Below are positions 50,057 to 60,591 of a DNA stretch of 62,909 nucleotides, one piece after another. The stretch's first letter is position 1. The number at the start of each line of letters is the position of its first letter. The stretch comes from an uncultured Candidatus Actinomarina sp. Its GTDB lineage: Bacteria; Actinomycetota; Acidimicrobiia; Actinomarinales; Actinomarinaceae. The DNA lies in contig CACNFT010000001.1 in NCBI GenBank assembly GCA_902619825.1, positions 72,620 to 135,528 on the forward strand, written 5' to 3'. The translations under genes and the position numbers were made by a program. The notes beneath the pieces are model-generated. The model made no database searches. It saw only the letters and a list, made by a program, of their open reading frames with translations, and was not told where the DNA came from.

Positions 50057-51067
50057 TTAAATCCTTTTTAAATCAAATTTTTCTTCAATATTTTGGAGTT
50101 CAAATGTAGAAACTAAAAGCTCTCCAATCTTTCCTCTGCCATCTTTTTTACTATTTATAGACTTGGAAACTAAGACCTCATAAGCATACAACTTTTCGTT
50201 TTGTAAAAATATCTCTCTTGCTAGTTGATTATTATTATTTGAAAGAATTACGTTATTTCCATCTTCTGCTAATTTTAAAAATATTTTTCCAAGTTCCACA
50301 TGGTCTTTATATTTAAACCCTTGTGAACTATAGTCAGTAAAATTTGATGTTTCTGAATTGGGTATATATGGAGGGTCTAGATAAATAAAGTGATTTTTCT
50401 TTTTAATGTTCTCAATTACTTCTTTATATGAACTACATGTTATTTGAGCATTTGATAAATAAAGGCTCGCATTAATAAGATTTTCTGTATCAACAATATT
50501 AACTTTTTTGTAACTACCAATCGGAACATTAAATTGATTATTACCATTCACCCTAAACATTCCGTTAAAACATAGTTTATTAATTGCTTGCATCAAAACA
50601 GCTGATCTGATTTTTTGTTTTTTAGTTTTTGGATTTATTTGAATATATTTTTTTTGATTTGTGGACTCCTCTGTCTCTGAAACTATTTTTTCTTTTACCC
50701 ATATTGAATTAAATTCACTAACTAAAGCTTTGTACTCCGAAACAGGTCTTTCTTTTTGAGATAGTAGTTTATTGAACTTAACCTCTATTTCCTCACACTG
50801 TTCAATAAAAGTTCCAAGATTCTTTCTATCTGAAATGATCTCATAGTAAGAAACAAGTTGGGGTATGGCATCATTCAAATAAGCTGAATCAATTAACCCT
50901 AAATCCTTTAAATGAAAAAAAATTGAACCTCCACCAAAAAATGGTTCATAGTAATCAAAAGTTTGGTTATTTTTGCTTTGAAGCAAAGACAAAGCATCTG
51001 ATATAAGATATTTTAGTTTTGTCTTTCCTCCAACCCACTTAAGCGTCGGTTTTGTAATATTAGTCAT
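50057..51067 (-). CDS. Dam-type DNA adenine methyltransferase
   Basis: N6-adenine methylase of the Dam/DpnM (alpha) class. Motif X is LKWVGGKTKLKYLI, motif I YYEPFFGGGSIFFHL, and motif IV DPPYIPNSETSNF (DPPY). FRVNGNNQFNVPIGSYK is the Dam-specific middle region. It is 336 residues from ATG 51067 (MTNITKPTLKW); the earlier ATG at 51124 reaches into the divergent gene. Recognition is probably GATC-like or a related short site, unproven. It is divergent from the ATPase-helicase operon, as if part of one modification-defence unit. Confidence 0.9.
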   Translation of the reverse strand: MTNITKPTLKWVGGKTKLKYLISDALSLLQSKNNQTFDYYEPFFGGGSIFFHLKDLGLIDSAYLNDAIPQLVSYYEIISDRKNLGTFIEQCEEIEVKFNKLLSQKERPVSEYKALVSEFNSIWVKEKIVSETEESTNQKKYIQINPKTKKQKIRSAVLMQAINKLCFNGMFRVNGNNQFNVPIGSYKKVNIVDTENLINASLYLSNAQITCSSYKEVIENIKKKNHFIYLDPPYIPNSETSNFTDYSSQGFKYKDHVELGKIFLKLAEDGNNVILSNNNNQLAREIFLQNEKLYAYEVLVSKSINSKKDGRGKIGELLVSTFELQNIEEKFDLKRI

Positions 51068-51122
51068 AGTCTTTACACATATTACTAGACAGATATGACT
51101 GAAATATTTAAAATAGGAAAAC

Positions 51123-51548
51123 ATGCTGAGTGACTATAGGTCTGAAATGATAGCTATTTTTGAAAATAATAACTATAAAGTACGTCCTATAAAAGATTCA
51201 TTTGATACAAGTTTGATGATAAATCATATTACTAGAAGAACTCCAAAGCAAAATATCTTTATAGCTATTAAAGAAAGTAAACCAGAATATTGCATAAGGT
51301 ACATGAGTCAAGAAAGTCCCTCTGGTACAGCTTGGATGAAAATTGATCTATACGCTAAAGAGCTCAGTCACTGGGTGCACAATATGGATTCTGTAGACAA
51401 AGCTCTTTTGTATTTGGGTGGGGAGTTTTGGCAAGATATAGATACAAAAAACTACTGGAACAAACTAGTAGAAGATTTGTCACTTCCTAGTGCTAATTTA
51501 AGTATTGTTGATAGTGATGGTTTAGTAAACTTATTGGAGAATAAATGA
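51123..51548 (+). CDS. Unknown first gene of the ATPase-helicase operon
   Basis: 141 residues, MLSDYRSEMIAIFENNNYKV at the N-terminus, mixed alpha/beta, with a central FIAIKES strand and a C-terminal helical part. I recognise no family. Its ATGA overlap with the MORC-like ATPase gene means coupled translation, so it is a likely component of the system, for example a specificity or adaptor subunit. It has a weak GGA upstream of the ATG. Confidence 0.7.
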   Translation: MLSDYRSEMIAIFENNNYKVRPIKDSFDTSLMINHITRRTPKQNIFIAIKESKPEYCIRYMSQESPSGTAWMKIDLYAKELSHWVHNMDSVDKALLYLGGEFWQDIDTKNYWNKLVEDLSLPSANLSIVDSDGLVNLLENK

Positions 51549-53215
51549 CTCAATTTCAACCTCAGTTAGGTAATGCTTTTTACAAAGCTCTAGGCGCTGA
51601 AGATATGGAGCCATTGCTAGCAATAAACGAAATCATTGCTAACTCCATCGACTCGTGGATAGAAGAGTATTGTGGTAAAAAAGCAAAACGTCCAAAACTA
51701 TCGATAGATATCAATATGTCAGCAAAACAAATAACTATTCAAGATAATGCTGGAGGAATGGAACCAGAGGAGTTAAAAAATGCCATGGGTTTTGCAAAAG
51801 TACAAAAAGAGCTAAGTGACTGTGCTGATGATTTAATGGGAATGTATGGATTTGGGCTTAAAGCTGCAACTGCAAATCTTGGAGGACATTTTGAGGTAGT
51901 TTCAAAAAGGAAAAATAAGGATCTCTGCCATGTGGTAATGCCTATCGACAAGATGGCAAAGGAAGTTAAGGCTGGAAAGTCTGGAATGCTCAGTGATATT
52001 GAAGAGAATGGGTACAACAAAAAAACAAAAATAAAAGATGTAGAAAAAGTATTTAATCCAGCTAAAACAAAGTCTGGTACATTTATTTATATTTCGCAGA
52101 TAAAAAGAACTAATTTTAACCCTGAATCAATAATGAACGAATTATGCTACGCATGGCATTTTTTCACCCAAGAAAATCATCTAGGACCTGCTGTAGAGAT
52201 AAAGTTCAACGGAGTAAAGATAGGTGAACCAGAGTGGGGTCGTGATCAAGGCGGACAAGTGCCTTACAGCTCCATAGATTTTGAGTTTCCGTTTTCTTGG
52301 AGAGAAAATACAGAAACAATTGAAACTAAGATTCAACTTTCGGTATGGCTTAATTATAAAGGTGGTCAATATCAAGCAGGTGGGTTGTCATTATATAGAA
52401 AACTACAAATGGTTTCTTATAAAGACCAAGAACTTGGCAAATGGTGGAGTAATGAAACAGCTACTGTAGAAGGTGTTCTAAGCACGGACTACTTAACACC
52501 TAATCAGAGAAAAGATGATTTAGATAGAACAACTAGGTTTTACAATGCTTTGCATAAAGCATTGGAACCAGTAATGAAAGGTGCGGCTAAATTCGTTGAC
52601 TCACAGCGTGGAGGCTTGGATGGAAAAGGGTTTTCTAGAATAGAAATGGCTAAGGATGAGTTCGAAATGGGAAAACTACTTGCATTAGGGTGGTGGAAAT
52701 ATTTTAATGAACACCCATTAATAGAAGTAAGTTCGAAATTTCCAAAAGAACTTGAAAAATTTTTAAAAGATAAACAGAGTACTCCAAGTGGTCCTGAAGA
52801 GCCTGGTCCTGAAGATCCTGGTCCTGAAGATCCTGGTCCTGAAGAGCCTGGTCCTGAAGAACCGGCTGTTGAAATTTTTGAACCTATCGATGAAAGCTCA
52901 TTTAATTTTGATGGTGAAACATATCAACTTCTCATACTCAAAGATAAAACTGATGGAAGTAGTTATGACTGGAAAAAAACTGGAGAACAAATTGAAATAT
53001 TTATTGATGATGAGGCTGACGGCATAAATAAAGAATTGGGAGGTATGCTGAAAAAAATGACAATTGACCCCGGAACGGGTAAGTGGGAAAAATTGTCTTT
53101 AAATTTAGTAAAAGAACACGTAATTCATCAATTTTTACTTAAAGAAAATATACAAAATGCGCGGGCATTTGCATATGCAAAATCTTGGATTGAGAACATT
53201 TATAAAAATGAATAA
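51545..53215 (+). CDS. MORC/MutL-like GHKL ATPase of a defence system
   Basis: 556 residues. The GHKL ATPase core is at the N-terminus: N-box INEIIANSIDSW (Glu29, Asn33), G1 box DNAGGM at 67-72, and G2 box GMYGFGLKAA at 99-108. A second S5-fold domain follows (to about 330; YRKLQMVSYKDQELG). A linker of five GPEE/DP repeats at about 416-440 leads to a C-terminal domain of about 115 residues. This layout matches prokaryotic MORC-type ATPases linked to restriction systems and the ATPase of Hma systems. GGAG precedes the ATG by 5 nt. Confidence 0.88.
   Translation: MTQFQPQLGNAFYKALGAEDMEPLLAINEIIANSIDSWIEEYCGKKAKRPKLSIDINMSAKQITIQDNAGGMEPEELKNAMGFAKVQKELSDCADDLMGMYGFGLKAATANLGGHFEVVSKRKNKDLCHVVMPIDKMAKEVKAGKSGMLSDIEENGYNKKTKIKDVEKVFNPAKTKSGTFIYISQIKRTNFNPESIMNELCYAWHFFTQENHLGPAVEIKFNGVKIGEPEWGRDQGGQVPYSSIDFEFPFSWRENTETIETKIQLSVWLNYKGGQYQAGGLSLYRKLQMVSYKDQELGKWWSNETATVEGVLSTDYLTPNQRKDDLDRTTRFYNALHKALEPVMKGAAKFVDSQRGGLDGKGFSRIEMAKDEFEMGKLLALGWWKYFNEHPLIEVSSKFPKELEKFLKDKQSTPSGPEEPGPEDPGPEDPGPEEPGPEEPAVEIFEPIDESSFNFDGETYQLLILKDKTDGSSYDWKKTGEQIEIFIDDEADGINKELGGMLKKMTIDPGTGKWEKLSLNLVKEHVIHQFLLKENIQNARAFAYAKSWIENIYKNE
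52790..52864 (+). repeat. Five 15-bp tandem repeats inside the ATPase gene
   Basis: Five consecutive units of GGTCCTGAAGANCCT (the last ends CCG) encode GPEEP/GPEDP. The first four differ at only one base, which suggests recent expansion. They form a flexible linker between the ATPase and the C-terminal domain, and the unit number could vary between strains without changing the frame. Confidence 0.95.
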
Positions 53216-53885
53216 CAAATTTAAACAAGCTTGGGAAGAACTATTAATATTAGAAAAATCTGAAAATCAAGAGTTGGCTGATTATGAAGATCAACTACTT
53301 GATATATTAAATATCCTTTTTAATCATTGGCCTGAGGGTGTTGACGATTTGTCTTTAGCTGACGAACTAAATACTACTGTCGCTAAAGTTACCGCTTTGA
53401 AGTTTTTAAGTTCTATAGAAGAAGATGAGTTGATTCCAGTTCTTAAAAAGTACAGAAACACTTCGCTTTTATATGAAATATTAAAAATACCTGAGCAAAC
53501 AAGAGATGTGTTTTTAAATAGAGCAGGAAGAGTTCGACATAATATTACAATGCTAGTCAAAATGGCTAATGATTTGTTTAATGGTTTAAGTGAAATTGAA
53601 AAAAATGAGAGTTCTAATCCTTGGATGAAAAAAATTAGTGTTATAGATAAAAGTATCTGGGGTGATATTGCTAATGAAGCAAAAGACTGGGGTATTAAAG
53701 AGCAAGATATTAAGAAAATTGAGAAATTTAAATCAGGTAGAAAAAAAACAATACAGGACTGGGAGTGGTTAAAAGATTTTGTTGAAATCCAGATAAATAA
53801 GAAAAATATAGCGCCAAAAAATATACATGGAGAACCTATGAATCATCACAAAGTTTTAATTGAAACATGGAAAAGAATAATCTAA
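53208..53885 (+). CDS. Unknown helical partner of the defence operon
   Basis: 225 residues from ATG 53208 (MNNKFKQAWEELLILEK), overlapping the ATPase stop by 8 bp. Predicted mostly alpha-helical with no known motif; the segment ADELNTTVAKVTALKFL may be a helix-turn-helix or a sensor domain. It ends one base before the helicase start. Its fixed place between ATPase and helicase suggests it is a subunit of that machine. Confidence 0.7.
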   Translation: MNNKFKQAWEELLILEKSENQELADYEDQLLDILNILFNHWPEGVDDLSLADELNTTVAKVTALKFLSSIEEDELIPVLKKYRNTSLLYEILKIPEQTRDVFLNRAGRVRHNITMLVKMANDLFNGLSEIEKNESSNPWMKKISVIDKSIWGDIANEAKDWGIKEQDIKKIEKFKSGRKKTIQDWEWLKDFVEIQINKKNIAPKNIHGEPMNHHKVLIETWKRII

Positions 53886-53886
53886 A

Positions 53887-56800
53887 TTGTCCTACAAAGA
53901 TTTACGCTTACGAAAAACAGTTGAAGGTAGTGGAAAATTACTTAACAATGTAATAAAACCCTCGCTCAAAGAAAACACAAAAACCTTTAGGGCTCTTACA
54001 GCTTATTACAGTATTGGATCTCTTGAAGCAATTGGAAAAACTCTTGACTATTTTTTAAGTAACGACGGAATAATTCAAATTGTTATTGGAGATCAAGTAG
54101 ATGACGAAAGGACACTTAAAGGGGCTAGTGAAGAACTTCAAAAAGAAGAAATTGTAATTTTTCAAAAAAAATTACAGGAGGATGTTGAACTTGTAAGAAA
54201 TGAAAATTCAAGGTTTACAATTGCGACAATTGCTTATTTGATTTTAGATGAAAAATTACAGCTTAAAGTCGCTAATTATAGAAATGGTGAGTTGTGGCAT
54301 CCAAAAATGTACCTTCTTGAAGATGGAGATGGGAACAAAATAGCCGCATCTGGATCTGGAAACATGTCAGAAAGCGGTTTTGAAAAAAACTATGAAATAC
54401 ATGATATTTTTACTAATTGGGACTTTGGTACCGAGTACTTTTCATCAGAAGATCCTTCAGAACCAACAAAGGAAGAAATTTTTTGGAGAATTTGGAATAA
54501 TAGTGATGAAAACACAGAGGTAAAGGAACTTGATAAAGAATACGCTCAAAAGCTCTTAGAAAGAATTGGTAATCCATCAAAAGAAGATGTTATTAAATAC
54601 GTAGATCAAAAAGTAAAAGATAACCAGAATGAAAATTTATTAAACTTTAAAAAAGATTTACAAACTTCTCCAATTTTCCACGAGTTTAATTTAGGTAAAT
54701 CAGCCCTATATCCACATCAAATAAATGCGGTACAAAAAGCGCTAAAAATGTGGCCAATCAGGATTCTCTTTTCTGATGAAGTTGGATTAGGTAAGACTTT
54801 AGAATTAGGAACGCTAATAGCTTATCTAATTAAAAACAATTTAGTAGATAATGTTTTAGTGTTGGCACCACCAACATTGACTGAACAGTGGCAAGATGAA
54901 ATGAAACAACACTTTGATCTAGACTTTGCAAGATATAACAGAACAAAAAAAAGTTGGGTCTATAAAGATGAAGAATTTGAAGGTATTAAAGAAAATTCTC
55001 CCTTAAGATACAACGATAATTTTCCCTCTTTAGCGATTATGTCTAAATCTATGGCAGTTCGATCAAATGAGCAACATATCTTTTTAGAAAACGATTCTTA
55101 TCCCGACTTTTTGGTAATTGATGAAGCTCATCATGCCAGAATGCACAGAGGTTATGATGGTTCAGCAAAGAAAACTAATTTTAGAAGAGTTGTGGAACAA
55201 ATCTCTAATGAAATCAAACACATAGCATTTGCAACAGCGACACCTATGAGAAAAAATATTGATGAATACTTCTTTTTATTAGATCTGTTGGGAGTGGAAG
55301 AGTTAATTAGTGAAAAAGATTATGAAAAATCTCTTTCTATAATAAATGATTTCTATACAGATAGAAATAACAAATTCAACTTAGATGACCTATCTCTAAT
55401 TAAAGATTTATTGATTAAAGTAATTGATAAATCAGAGGAACGTTTTTTTCACAATTCTCCAGAAATTTATAGCCTTGTAAACGAACTTAAAAACGGTGAG
55501 GTTGATAATACTTGGCTTTTTGAAAATAGTAAAAAATTAATTGAGTTTCATACGATTTATCATCCGACAAGAATTTTAACTTCAAGGAATGTTCAGGAAA
55601 ATCTTAATAAGTTTTCTGAGATTTATAAAATACCTAAAAGAACTCTAAGGCCATCTCCAATTCTTCCAATTGATATTTCAAATGAGCTTAATGACTTCTT
55701 TTCAAGCATTATGGAGTATGTAGATAGATTTTATCAAATAACTGAACTCGCTATTACCCCTGATAAGCAATTACCTCTTGGTCTTAGAAGACATTCTTTA
55801 CAAGAGAGATTCGCTTCAAGTTTTTGGTCGGCAAAAAAGAGTATCACAAACAGAAGAGAGCATCTTATTAATTCGCTTGAAGGCTTTAAAGAGAATAAAA
55901 TTACAAAAGAATTTTTTGAGAATTCTGATGAAAATGATGACGAAGATACAATAATTGCCGGATTAACAAAGAGCGAATTAGTCAGTGTTGACTGGGAAAA
56001 TGTAATTAAAAATTGTGAGTCAGAGATAAGAGCATTAAATACCTATGTTGACTTGGCAGAAATAGTTATAAATAGTACTCCTGAAGGTATTGATCCTGAC
56101 CCTAAAATTAATGAGACTGTCAGGTTATTTTCTGAACACATAGATAAAAATCCTGGAAAACCGTTATTAATTTTCTCTAAATATACAGACACTTTAAATG
56201 AAGTTGAACGAGCTGTTATTTCTTATTGTGAAACTAACGACATTTACATGGGTTATGCAAGTTATAGAGGAGACTATCGAAGAATTAAATACGCAAATGA
56301 CCGTGAACATAGAAAGGCTGAAAAGAGAGATATAACAAGAGCACTAAACAACGGGAGAATTCAAGTAATTTTTTGCAGTTCGGCGGCTAGCGAAGGTCTG
56401 AATTTGCAAGCAGCTTCTTACATGATTAACGTAGATGTGCCGTGGGTACCTAGTGATCTTGAGCAGAGGATTGGAAGAATTGCTAGGTTAGGTCAAAAAG
56501 AAGATGAGGTAGTAATTGATAATATTTGGTACCCATTCAGTATTGAAAGCAATATGTATAAAAGACTTATTGATCGTCAAAGAGACATGTCTTTTGCTAT
56601 TGGGCAATTTCCAGACTTGATTGCTGAGGCAATTAAGAATTTTGTAGATGACAAAGATGCAAAAAAAATTGAGAAAACGATTGATGAAATTAATAAAAAG
56701 AAAAATACCTATGAAATGAAGGTGTTAAATGAACTATGGATCCAGGATGGGAACGAGCCTCTTCATCCTTGGGGGAACGTGTTTAGAAAAGAAATCCTTG

Positions 56801-57252
56801 AAATTATGCAGAAACTAGATTTAAATACCGAAAGTATTGATTCGAACTCAGGCTCATTAGACATTCTACATTTTCATTTAACAGAGTTTGAAGAAATATT
56901 TAATCAAGAACCAAAAGAAGACGGTTCTAATGCAGATCTGTTAGGCATTTATTCTAATGAATATTTGGTAGGCTTTAAATTGTTGAAAGACGGTGAAGAA
57001 AATGGATTATTAATAAATCCTATCAATTTCCCACAAGTATTAGAAAGTCTCTTTTTTGGAAGTAGTTTATCTATAGAAACATATGACAAACAACTAGACA
57101 CTCTCAATAAATTATTTAACTTTTATTTAGATATAAAATACCCGAGCTTGCTACCAGTTCATCATTTAATTTCATTTATTGAAAACGAAATAAGTCAAGA
57201 ATCGTTTGATAGAGAATTGAAAGAAAAGGTAATAGGCAGGGTTACTCTGTAA
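53887..57252 (+). CDS. SNF2/SF2 helicase with N-terminal PLD nuclease domain
   Basis: 1121 residues, TTG start directly after the previous stop. Residues 1-250 hold a phospholipase D-like nuclease: HPKMYLLED (138-146, HxK) followed by SGSGNMSESGF. The helicase follows: Walker A DEVGLGKT (297-304), DEAHHARMH (motif II), FATATPMRKN (motif III), SSAASEGLNLQAAS (motif V) and QRIGRIARLGQ (motif VI). Such PLD-SNF2 helicases are effector candidates of MORC-type and Hma systems and of DISARM-like arrangements. Only a single HKD-type motif is seen, so the nuclease would need to dimerise. Confidence 0.92.
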   Translation: MSYKDLRLRKTVEGSGKLLNNVIKPSLKENTKTFRALTAYYSIGSLEAIGKTLDYFLSNDGIIQIVIGDQVDDERTLKGASEELQKEEIVIFQKKLQEDVELVRNENSRFTIATIAYLILDEKLQLKVANYRNGELWHPKMYLLEDGDGNKIAASGSGNMSESGFEKNYEIHDIFTNWDFGTEYFSSEDPSEPTKEEIFWRIWNNSDENTEVKELDKEYAQKLLERIGNPSKEDVIKYVDQKVKDNQNENLLNFKKDLQTSPIFHEFNLGKSALYPHQINAVQKALKMWPIRILFSDEVGLGKTLELGTLIAYLIKNNLVDNVLVLAPPTLTEQWQDEMKQHFDLDFARYNRTKKSWVYKDEEFEGIKENSPLRYNDNFPSLAIMSKSMAVRSNEQHIFLENDSYPDFLVIDEAHHARMHRGYDGSAKKTNFRRVVEQISNEIKHIAFATATPMRKNIDEYFFLLDLLGVEELISEKDYEKSLSIINDFYTDRNNKFNLDDLSLIKDLLIKVIDKSEERFFHNSPEIYSLVNELKNGEVDNTWLFENSKKLIEFHTIYHPTRILTSRNVQENLNKFSEIYKIPKRTLRPSPILPIDISNELNDFFSSIMEYVDRFYQITELAITPDKQLPLGLRRHSLQERFASSFWSAKKSITNRREHLINSLEGFKENKITKEFFENSDENDDEDTIIAGLTKSELVSVDWENVIKNCESEIRALNTYVDLAEIVINSTPEGIDPDPKINETVRLFSEHIDKNPGKPLLIFSKYTDTLNEVERAVISYCETNDIYMGYASYRGDYRRIKYANDREHRKAEKRDITRALNNGRIQVIFCSSAASEGLNLQAASYMINVDVPWVPSDLEQRIGRIARLGQKEDEVVIDNIWYPFSIESNMYKRLIDRQRDMSFAIGQFPDLIAEAIKNFVDDKDAKKIEKTIDEINKKKNTYEMKVLNELWIQDGNEPLHPWGNVFRKEILEIMQKLDLNTESIDSNSGSLDILHFHLTEFEEIFNQEPKEDGSNADLLGIYSNEYLVGFKLLKDGEENGLLINPINFPQVLESLFFGSSLSIETYDKQLDTLNKLFNFYLDIKYPSLLPVHHLISFIENEISQESFDRELKEKVIGRVTL

Positions 57253-57448: not shown

Positions 57449-57492
57449 AGCTAAAGAGTATCAAATAAAATAAGATAGTAAAAGAATAAAAA

Positions 57493-58083
57493 ATGTTTAA
57501 AGAGAGATTTGGAAAGTTTATTGAAGAAAACTATGAAATTCATGAATTTGGAAATGCTTCAGCAATCTTCAAACACGATTATCCAACTGAATTTAATGAA
57601 TTAAAAAGCTCTCTAGAGAATTTTACTCTGAAGAAATCTAACTTAGTAGAAAAAGGGGGTGGAAAGTCAAAAATACCTCCTACTTTTGAGGATCCCTTGT
57701 ATAAAAATGGATGGATTGAAAAAAATTTTGATATCAGTATTTCACTTGATGGTGTTGAAAGCAAAATTGAGACACATAAAATTGACTGTTTTAAAAACAA
57801 AATAGGGATTGAAGTCGAGTGGAATAATAAAACAGAGTTTTATGATAGGGATTTAAATAACTTTAGGGTATTGCATAGTTTAAATGCTTTAGACTTAGGA
57901 ATAATCATTACAAGATGTGACGAGTTAAACGATATTTTCCGCACATTAGATATTTATTCAAAATATGGAGAATCCACAACAATTTTAAACAAACTGTTAT
58001 CTAAAGTTAGAAGTGGTTCACTCGGCGGTTGCCCGCTTTTAATTTTTGGAATTAAAAAAAGTCTATACAGAGATAATTTGTGA
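57493..58083 (+). CDS. BglII-family restriction endonuclease-like protein
   Basis: 196 residues. The segment NKIGIEVEWNNKTEFYDRDL with ALDLGIIITRCDEL matches the BglII-type nuclease core (IEVEWNNK with the metal-binding acidic residues, then the helix and LGIII strand). It follows the helicase operon and a divergent small gene, which favours a role in the same island. No cognate methylase other than the Dam-type enzyme is nearby; whether these two form a restriction pair is not known. The start at 57493 has a -10-like TAAGAT and a purine-rich AAAGAATAAAAA. Confidence 0.75.
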   Translation: MFKERFGKFIEENYEIHEFGNASAIFKHDYPTEFNELKSSLENFTLKKSNLVEKGGGKSKIPPTFEDPLYKNGWIEKNFDISISLDGVESKIETHKIDCFKNKIGIEVEWNNKTEFYDRDLNNFRVLHSLNALDLGIIITRCDELNDIFRTLDIYSKYGESTTILNKLLSKVRSGSLGGCPLLIFGIKKSLYRDNL

Positions 58084-58095
58084 GATAAAAAATAA

Positions 58096-58129
58096 TACTG
58101 GCTTCACAACATTAGTCATGAAGCCAGTA
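58096..58129 (-). terminator. Terminator between convergent genes
   Basis: An 11-bp perfect stem TACTGGCTTCA / TGAAGCCAGTA around a 12-base loop. On the minus strand it is followed by TTATTTTTTATC, giving an intrinsic terminator for the gene at 58135; on the plus strand a T-run is missing, but the hairpin could still protect or end the BglII-like mRNA. Confidence 0.75.
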
Positions 58130-58134
58130 CCGGC

Positions 58135-58680
58135 TCAGTATGAATCTATAATAAAATAGTCGCCACTAGGAATATTCCAGGCTTTAACTGCATCGAACCA
58201 TCTAAAATGTCCTTCAGCTTCATTGGTATCTCCTGCAAAAACTATTCCCGATACATATTGAAATAACAATGATGAACATTTTCCATTGACATGAGATTTT
58301 GATGATTTCATATCAACTGCCCTTATTAATTTTTCAATGTATTGAATAGTTTTTAAGGTAACTTGACCTCCCGCATTTTTTCTATTCAATCTTATATAGT
58401 CATTAATATTTGGCTTTGGTCTATTTAAACGTTGAGAAATTCTTATTGGAGCTAATATCGCGTTTGGATCCTTTAAGTCATCTAATTTTCCATCTATTTC
58501 TAAAGAAATTTGCATATCTTCTTTATTAAATCTCATAATTATCCAAATATCTTTACCAAATTTAGACGTACCGAGATATCTTCTACCATTAAAAGTATCT
58601 TTTTTTAACGCATTTGTTAGAAATTGCTCTTTTTTTCTTTTTTTAAGTTCTAACTTCTTGTTATCTATTTCTTTATTCAA
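58135..58680 (-). CDS. Unknown protein behind a hairpin leader
   Basis: 181 residues. I choose TTG 58680 as start because AAAGGGG lies 5-6 nt upstream; the frame is open 10 codons more, into the terminator U-run. The N-terminus is strongly basic (KKLELKKRKKEQFLTN) and the rest is alpha/beta, with FGKDIWIIMRFNKEDMQISLEID and a C-terminal GDYFIIDSY. No family is recognised. Its message would begin with two stem-loops, so expression may depend on antitermination. Confidence 0.6.
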   Translation of the reverse strand: MNKEIDNKKLELKKRKKEQFLTNALKKDTFNGRRYLGTSKFGKDIWIIMRFNKEDMQISLEIDGKLDDLKDPNAILAPIRISQRLNRPKPNINDYIRLNRKNAGGQVTLKTIQYIEKLIRAVDMKSSKSHVNGKCSSLLFQYVSGIVFAGDTNEAEGHFRWFDAVKAWNIPSGDYFIIDSY

Positions 58681-58708
58681 ATAATCCCCTTTCAATGTAA
58701 ATTTGCAC

Positions 58709-58740
58709 AAAAAAAAAGAAGCGAGAGATTTCCCGCTTCT
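58709..58740 (-). terminator. Intrinsic terminator in the leader of the 58135 gene
   Basis: Minus strand: stem AGAAGCG / CGCTTCT with a 10-base loop, followed by nine T. It lies about 30-60 nt after the predicted transcription start and upstream of the coding region, so it would end most transcripts early. Confidence 0.75.
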
Positions 58741-58745
58741 AAATT

Positions 58746-58767
58746 AAAAAAGCACACGGTTGTGTGC
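58746..58767 (-). promoter_or_regulatory. First leader stem-loop followed by U6
   Basis: Minus strand: perfect 6-bp stem GCACAC / GTGTGC, loop AACC, then six T. It begins about 4 nt after the predicted transcription start, too close for normal termination, so it may instead be a 5'-end stabilising hairpin. Confidence 0.7.
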
Positions 58768-58777
58768 GTTAGATTAC

Positions 58778-58806
58778 ATTATATCACAAAATGATTAAAA
58801 AATCAA
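58778..58806 (-). promoter_or_regulatory. Strong predicted sigma-70-type promoter
   Basis: Minus strand: -35 TTGATT (58806-58801), spacer 17, -10 TATAAT (58783-58778) with TGTGA just upstream of it. The start would be near 58771. It is the best promoter match seen in the window. Confidence 0.65.
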
Positions 58807-58845
58807 TTTTCAGCTGTTTGTGGCTAAGTTAGTATGTAATGATAT

Positions 58846-60591
58846 ATGGGGAAAGCGACATTTTTTGAGGGAGAGTATCCAGAATCAAATACTTCTGAAA
58901 AAAAGATTGCAGAAATTTTAAAAAAATTTACAAATGAATGGACAATTTTTCACTCTGTAAAAGTTCATGATCCCGAAACTGAAAAGCTAACAAATACAGA
59001 AATTGACTTCTTACTTATTCATCCTGCATATGGATTTATACAGATAGAGGTAAAAGGGAAAGGATACCAAACAGATGAGGAGGGTAATTGGTTTATAAAA
59101 AAAGGACCAAATAAAGAAAAAGTAGCTTCTCCAATCGATTCACTTGGTGAAAAACAATCTAAGATAATGAAAACTTTCCTATATCACAATAAATCTATAA
59201 AGGGAGTAGATCTTTTTAATGTAAATGTACCCATAATATCACTTATGTTTTGGACTGACTTAAAGCGTGAAGATCTACCAATTGCAGAAGTTTCAGAAGT
59301 AAATTCTTACTTTGTTGAAGATATATTTATTCCGGTTGAGAATCTTGAAGAAAATTTGTTACAAAAAATGCAGAAACATATAAAAGTTAATAAAAAAATA
59401 AAATTTGATAAAAACAAGTGGTTGTCTCCATTCTTAGGAAAACCATTTGTTACTACAGCTATTAATATTTTTAAACCATATCAGAAGAGTTATAAATTAA
59501 AGTCAGCAACAGGTAGAACCAGTAATGAATTAGAGCTTGCTACACAAGAACAGATTGAGCATTACAAGATACTAACTGACAGCAGTTACAAACGTCACCT
59601 TGTAAGTGGCCCTCCAGGAAGTGGAAAGACTGTGTTAGCTAAAGCTATAGCTAGGGAAAGAGCAGAAGAAGGTAAAAAAGTACTTTTTATGTGTTTCAAC
59701 AGGGCATTAGCTGATGAGATTGATTTTGAATTTAGGAAAGAAGAAAATATTGAAGTCATGTCTATGTGGAAGTATTTTAAACTACTTGGGATATCGTGGG
59801 AAGATACTGTTGAGCATGAGGGTAAGAAAATTGTACTTCAAAAACTACCTCCCCATATTTCATCAAAGTATATAGCGAAATTGTTAGAAGAAAAAATAAA
59901 TGATGCGGTAGATAATTTTAAATTTGACACTCTGCTTATTGATGAAGCGCAGGATTTTTCTGAAAAATATTGGGATTTTTTTAAATTACTTTTTGCTGAA
60001 AATCCTGAATCTGCTTGGTATTTATTTTTTGACACAAACCAAGCTCTTACGCACCCTGAATGGTCGCCTCCACTATTTGAAATACCTCATTCAAATTTAC
60101 CCTTGACTTATATATTGAGATGCACTGAAAACATATCTCATAAAGTACAGAATATATTTGAATCTAAGTTTGGCTTCAAGGGAATTACTGGAGAAGAACC
60201 TGAATTTTTAGTTGTAAATGAATCATCATGGGATAAATCTTTGGAAGAATTAGTGAAGCTATTAAAAAATCTTATAGACATTGAACATTTTTCTCCAAAA
60301 CAATTATCAGTGCTGGTGCCTCACTCACGAGATATAGATTTGGTAAAAGGTTATAAATATGATGAAGAAAGCTCTATTGAATCTAAAAAAATTAATGTAT
60401 CTTCAGTGTACAAATACAAAGGACTAGAAAATGATATTGTAATAGTCGTCATACCTAGCTGGGATTCATTAAATGCCGATTATATACTTCAACCCCTTAG
60501 TCTTGCCTATGTTGGCTTTTCGAGAGCAAAGACTAAATTATATGTCATAGGAGATAAAAAAATCCAAAAAGAAATAAATTGGAACAAATAA
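58846..60591 (+). CDS. NERD-domain UvrD-type helicase
   Basis: 581 residues. The NERD nuclease-like domain is at 15-180: EIDFLLIHPAYGFIQIEVKGKG carries the acidic residue and the ExK-like pair. An SF1 helicase follows: SGPPGSGKT (254-262), DTLLIDEAQDFSEKYW (motif II), PLTYILRCTEN (motif IV-like), and YKYKGLENDIVIVVI plus YVGFSRAKTKLYVI (motifs V/VI). Such proteins are common in defence islands. The ATG at 58846 has no SD; TGTAAT lies 5 bp upstream, which fits a leaderless start. Confidence 0.9.
   Translation: MGKATFFEGEYPESNTSEKKIAEILKKFTNEWTIFHSVKVHDPETEKLTNTEIDFLLIHPAYGFIQIEVKGKGYQTDEEGNWFIKKGPNKEKVASPIDSLGEKQSKIMKTFLYHNKSIKGVDLFNVNVPIISLMFWTDLKREDLPIAEVSEVNSYFVEDIFIPVENLEENLLQKMQKHIKVNKKIKFDKNKWLSPFLGKPFVTTAINIFKPYQKSYKLKSATGRTSNELELATQEQIEHYKILTDSSYKRHLVSGPPGSGKTVLAKAIARERAEEGKKVLFMCFNRALADEIDFEFRKEENIEVMSMWKYFKLLGISWEDTVEHEGKKIVLQKLPPHISSKYIAKLLEEKINDAVDNFKFDTLLIDEAQDFSEKYWDFFKLLFAENPESAWYLFFDTNQALTHPEWSPPLFEIPHSNLPLTYILRCTENISHKVQNIFESKFGFKGITGEEPEFLVVNESSWDKSLEELVKLLKNLIDIEHFSPKQLSVLVPHSRDIDLVKGYKYDEESSIESKKINVSSVYKYKGLENDIVIVVIPSWDSLNADYILQPLSLAYVGFSRAKTKLYVIGDKKIQKEINWNK

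Follow-up and report, generated by a model that had tools for sequence, protein, structure and literature searches.

How is a gene expressed when two hairpins, each followed by a run of Us, stand between it and a consensus-like promoter? The question is raised by a locus of Candidatus Actinomarina, a free-living marine actinobacterium with a streamlined and very small genome. The window analysed here, a stretch of 62,909 nucleotides, is part of a 408-kb contig in an assembly of 1.08 Mb and 13 contigs. Its sequence points to a real and unusual terminator-gated leader in front of a gene of an undescribed phage family, the function of which we infer.

Genomic context

The focal stretch lies inside an island that harbors a D12-class adenine methyltransferase, an HSP90-type ATPase, a phospholipase D/Snf2 helicase, a BglII-family restriction enzyme and a NERD helicase. 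This gene content justifies the label of defence island that the initial annotation had given to the surroundings of the gene. The divergent neighbour (58846-60591, plus strand) combines a NERD nuclease with a superfamily 1 helicase and resembles defence NERD-helicases. The convergent neighbour (57493-58083, plus strand) is the BglII-family restriction endonuclease, and no methyltransferase directly adjoins it. It is missing in a sister genome, where it falls in an alignment gap (57449-58087) of an otherwise collinear region.

To note, a block at 50057-57252 of the window encodes the D12 methyltransferase, a 141-aa protein, the HSP90-type ATPase, a 242-aa protein and the phospholipase D/Snf2 helicase. 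It is retained in the sister genome, the helicase and the 242-aa protein being far more conserved than the methyltransferase, and is a candidate for a defence system not yet described.

The promoter

The promoter (58778-58806, minus strand) reads TTGATT-17-TGaTATAAT: a -35 box TTGATT at 58806-58801, a 17-bp spacer and a -10 box TATAAT at 58783-58778, with a TG one base 5' of the latter that makes it an extended -10. The consensus-like promoter of the initial annotation is thus present in all its elements, and it is the same letter for letter in the sister genome. Five sites with 10/12 matches occur between 48 and 62.9 kb, and the focal one is the sole TG bearer among the sites listed. Over 400 kb of the host contig, no other TATAAT site has both a TG and at least 4/6 matches at -35. 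Of the 40 TATAAT promoters whose -35 is passable, a single one carries the TG extension and a single one is followed by terminators within 150 nt; in both cases it is the focal promoter. From its position, transcription is predicted to start near 58770. No second sigma70-like site was found between hairpin 2 and the gene start; a promoter for another sigma factor may lie downstream of the terminator.

An imperfect inverted repeat (window 58785-58822) overlaps the focal -35 and is unchanged in the sister genome. It could be an operator common to the focal promoter and the divergent NERD helicase gene.

The two hairpins and the predicted short RNA

Hairpin 1 (58752-58767, minus strand; -7.9 kcal/mol) begins at about +4 and folds six base pairs, GCACAC-AACC-GUGUGC, followed by six Us (58751-58746), exactly as first described. 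Its closeness to the 5' end may prevent it from terminating transcription. Hairpin 2 (58717-58740, minus strand; -13.7 kcal/mol) is an intrinsic terminator of the form AGAAGCGGGA-AAUC-UCUCGCUUCU. The initial annotation had recognized this terminator and had drawn it with seven pairs and nine Us; the stem extends to ten pairs, one of them G-U, and its U-run (58716-58709) counts eight Us past the stem, or nine with the final stem base. A terminated small RNA of about 62 nt (58709-58770, minus strand) is predicted from the positions of promoter and terminator.

Folding of the 63-nt leader yields -23.5 kcal/mol, whereas shuffled sequences give -8.2 ± 2.4 (z -6.3; 0 of 200 shuffles as good), and the 89-nt leader has a folding z-score of -4.95. 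In a set of 115 intergenic stretches that precede genes, the focal leader ranks fifth by this score, some of its neighbours in the ranking being terminators of upstream genes or the ilvB attenuator; z-scores below -3.3 are common, found in 11% of upstream regions. A strict scan of 400 kb of the host contig returned 49 terminator-like sites, and the single tandem pair on one strand is the focal one. The frequency of hairpin 2 and of the tandem pair differs from chance, unlike that of hairpin 1, whose arrangement beside a -10 was seen 3 times for 0-6 expected.

The latter count, together with the start of hairpin 1 at about +4, would fit a role of hairpin 1 as a 5'-end stabiliser, hairpin 2 alone being of importance, or a role of both in stabilising and insulating the mRNA. 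In the same contig, a livJ-like gene likewise shows a hairpin and TTTTTTAATTT directly after a -10-like sequence. This explanation is nonetheless improbable, as hairpin 2 with its eight to nine Us qualifies as a strong terminator under all criteria applied, which a stabiliser would not require. The hairpin and TTTTTTAATTT resembling hairpin 1 are located at L039:2040-2145 (contig C1:282040-282145), where the gene encodes a branched-chain amino acid binding protein.

Termination as the predicted default

The order of elements, a promoter, an intrinsic terminator and a gene without a promoter of its own, is that of an attenuator-type architecture, at the level of sequence only. We consider it probable that the locus is a self-attenuated, default-off, terminator-gated leader that yields an RNA of about 60 nt, the gene being expressed by readthrough. 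In such a mechanism, the strong extended -10 promoter would start transcription near 58770, and RNA polymerase would meet hairpin 1 and its six Us, then the strong terminator formed by hairpin 2 and its eight to nine Us. Most transcripts would end as the RNA of about 60 nt. Readthrough molecules alone would extend into the gene, which is equipped with a ribosome site and a terminator of its own, and this chromosomal copy of a family known otherwise from marine phages would be kept at low constant expression in its defence island. Suppressed termination, for example by phage antitermination or an altered polymerase, could raise expression of the gene. What we infer from these elements is an active promoter, efficient termination and accumulation of the RNA; induction by phage and a defence role are speculative.

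Constrained folding of the 63-nt RNA shows that a fold freeing hairpin 2 reaches -9.3 kcal/mol, as compared to -23.5 kcal/mol for the stable fold. No competing fold frees this hairpin, and termination should therefore be the default. An antiterminator/terminator switch was looked for and not found, the 63-nt RNA having no mutually exclusive fold; an alternative fold, less stable by 8 kcal/mol, is confined to the 89-nt RNA, which exists once the terminator has been passed. The focal leader does not contain an ATG frame that could encode a leader peptide. A GTG candidate was discarded, as it lacks a ribosome site and its frame is broken in the sister genome by the change of U6 to U7. Nor does the leader match any Rfam family at the gathering threshold, riboswitches and T-boxes included; at a permissive threshold the matches are weak, sub-threshold sRNAs, the best being sraA on the opposite strand.

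Leader terminators are in use in this organism, as exemplified by the textbook attenuator of ilvB (acetolactate synthase) on the same contig (L025:10200-10340, contig C1), which encodes the peptide MKKSVNLISLLVLVLM followed by a CCTCCCC/GGGAGG stem and nine Ts. Both leaders place an intrinsic terminator between promoter and gene, but in that of ilvB a Leu/Val/Ile-rich peptide is encoded ahead of the terminator, a frame of which the focal leader is devoid. The existence of this attenuator in the genome, and the focal anatomy of a strong promoter followed by default termination, fit a conditional version of the mechanism, in which a trans factor (a phage antiterminator, an RNA-binding protein, or a cold or stalled polymerase) blocks termination and switches on the gene in the course of infection. 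We regard this version as rather unlikely, given that the leader encodes no leader peptide, forms no competing structure as a terminated RNA, matches no known riboswitch and displays no recognised antitermination site.

With no alternative fold and no leader peptide, the simplest reading of the sequence is attenuation of a passive kind, in which the short RNA would be abundant and the protein scarce, with possibly more protein when termination fails. The initial annotation had hesitated between a small RNA with its own terminator and an attenuator opened by readthrough. The anatomy predicts both a short RNA and readthrough; of a regulated switch, the searches revealed neither a leader peptide, an Rfam family above threshold nor a competing antiterminator.

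Conservation of the leader

Among 42 genomes of the genus, the leader DNA is found in one other, the sister genome; other matches are short and weak. Promoter, leader and gene are all retained there, the encoded protein being 97% identical. No difference was seen in the promoter region, nor between hairpin 2 and the start codon. The leader differs by four substitutions and one U insertion: A to G and C to T in the 5' tail, C to A in loop 1, U6 to U7, and a G-U pair that becomes A-U in stem 2. None of these changes breaks a base pair, and the stem of hairpin 1 is unchanged. These data fall short of proving that the stems are under selection, as four changes do not suffice and the divergence of the leader (4 substitutions per 63 nt) is near the 6% observed at four-fold sites of the gene.

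Distant chromosomal relatives (43% and 41% protein identity) have different upstream stretches that do not contain the focal leader, and exact pattern scans of viral contigs did not retrieve it. Conservation and covariation of both stems, proposed from the start as a check, thus give a divided answer: pairing is kept in the sister genome through the G-U to A-U change, while the distant relatives and the phage copies are devoid of the leader. Such confinement to two close genomes is compatible with a functionless element, either chance hairpins or the decaying relic of a terminator in a streamlined genome. This is extremely unlikely in view of the folding z-score of -6.3, the uniqueness of the tandem pair in 400 kb, the intact promoter and ribosome site, and the pairs kept in the sister genome.

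The gene and its protein family

The gene (58135-58680, minus strand) comprises 181 codons from a TTG start at 58680, which lies beyond hairpin 2, in agreement with the initial statement that the gene follows only after the second hairpin. It is preceded by a Shine-Dalgarno sequence, GAAAGGGG, at 58694-58687 and followed by its own intrinsic terminator (58094-58131, minus strand; about 16-17 bp, -24.6 kcal/mol), in which the sister genome displays a pair-keeping change. Its description as an unknown gene stands: the protein has no family match in Pfam, NCBIfam, PADLOC or the sequences of the PDB. Searches of plasmids and phage records did not return a match either, nor did a sample of 395 further genomes of the phylum.

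Profile searches against the viral contigs of IMG/VR uncovered an unnamed family that is widespread in marine phages, with 52 viral loci. In alignment A4, which assembles 25 of these 52 loci and the chromosomal copies, seven residues are invariant: G32, R34, G37, T111, L118, W168 and Y175. The island gene is 20-36% identical to the phage members. Judging from this homology and from the seven invariant residues common to the alignment, the island gene is a true member of the family and has phage relatives. Unlike it, the marine phage copies reside inside phage operons without a leader. At many phage loci the start codon abuts or overlaps the preceding stop region, and these copies appear start-coupled to the preceding gene. 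The gate would thus be a feature of the chromosomal lineage.

An AlphaFold2 model of the focal protein, built from 29 sequences, has a mean pLDDT of 93.7 and no match in the PDB at E < 0.3. An earlier 9-sequence model had no match in the PDB or in a viral structure library. Islands also house the other Actinomarina copies, which adjoin or lie close to Cas4-like PD-(D/E)XK nucleases; these were identified in three separate islands (L013:13622-14353, L014:9303-10055 and L103:12153-12890). One further copy of the family belongs to a phage-like contig.

Comparison with RNA-toxin systems

Type III toxin-antitoxin loci combine a promoter, a structured RNA, a terminator and a gene in one unit, and the RNA neutralises the toxin (PMC5086642). 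The RCd22-AbiF system of Clostridioides difficile assembles a housekeeping promoter, a two-hairpin RNA, a Rho-independent terminator and a gene expressed by readthrough; its RNA neutralises the toxin, and its transcription start site is 168 nt before the abiF gene (PMC12373285). AvcID was compared as well; according to its paper, no terminator is predicted to separate RNA and gene (PMC10511110).

The focal locus presents the same order of promoter, two-hairpin RNA, terminator and readthrough gene as RCd22-AbiF, and, as in ToxIN, CptIN and TenpIN, RNA and terminator precede the gene in one transcription unit. The differences are several. The focal protein is not Abi_2/AbiF, the RNA is without the abiF motif (RF03085), its second hairpin is the terminator itself, and it measures about 62 nt as compared to about 100. 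With respect to ToxIN, CptIN and TenpIN, the focal locus is devoid of tandem repeats, and its protein falls outside these families and has no fold match. On these comparisons the locus resembles type III and RCd22-AbiF systems in layout only, and it is not filed with them because the repeats and the RNA motif are absent and the protein belongs to another family.

This layout, published for ToxIN-type loci (PMC5086642) and for RCd22-AbiF (PMC12373285), together with the position in a defence island and the structured stretches that also precede other island copies, would suit an RNA antitoxin module. Here, an excess of the 60-nt RNA would bind and restrain the protein, and the shut-off of transcription by a phage would free it. 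Such a module is unlikely: tandem RNA repeats were not found in the focal leader, neither an AbiF motif nor any other Rfam family matches at threshold, the protein is not ToxN, CptN, TenpN or Abi_2 by profile or fold, and phage family members are without such an RNA. Moreover, the leaders of the other island copies share no sequence, and z-scores below -3.3 are reached by 11% of upstream regions. A combined scheme is very unlikely: a new kind of RNA-gated defence module in Actinomarina islands, in which the 60-nt RNA both represses the gene and binds the protein until phage takeover of transcription, by antitermination or shut-off, frees this protein, whose fold would be new, to act against related phages.

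A cognate RNA for every island copy was also considered and is kept as a lead. The L013/L014 and L103 copies do follow strongly folded stretches, yet such z-scores are not rare ahead of genes, and conservation of the L013/L014 folded stretch extends to an upstream frame that is 98% identical. This 244-nt intergenic stretch (L013:12834-13077; L014 10595-10839, minus strand) is near-identical in the two genomes, and the family proteins downstream are just 64% identical. It has a z-score of -5.0, a long closing helix and no Rfam match.

Biological significance

The preferred reading thus remains a leader in which termination is the default state. The family to which the gene belongs, undescribed so far, is common to marine phages and to the defence islands of Actinomarina, and together with the gate it makes a clear experiment possible. 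If the gate works, a defence-island gene with phage relatives would be held off by termination, without a repressor, and phage antitermination could trip this control.
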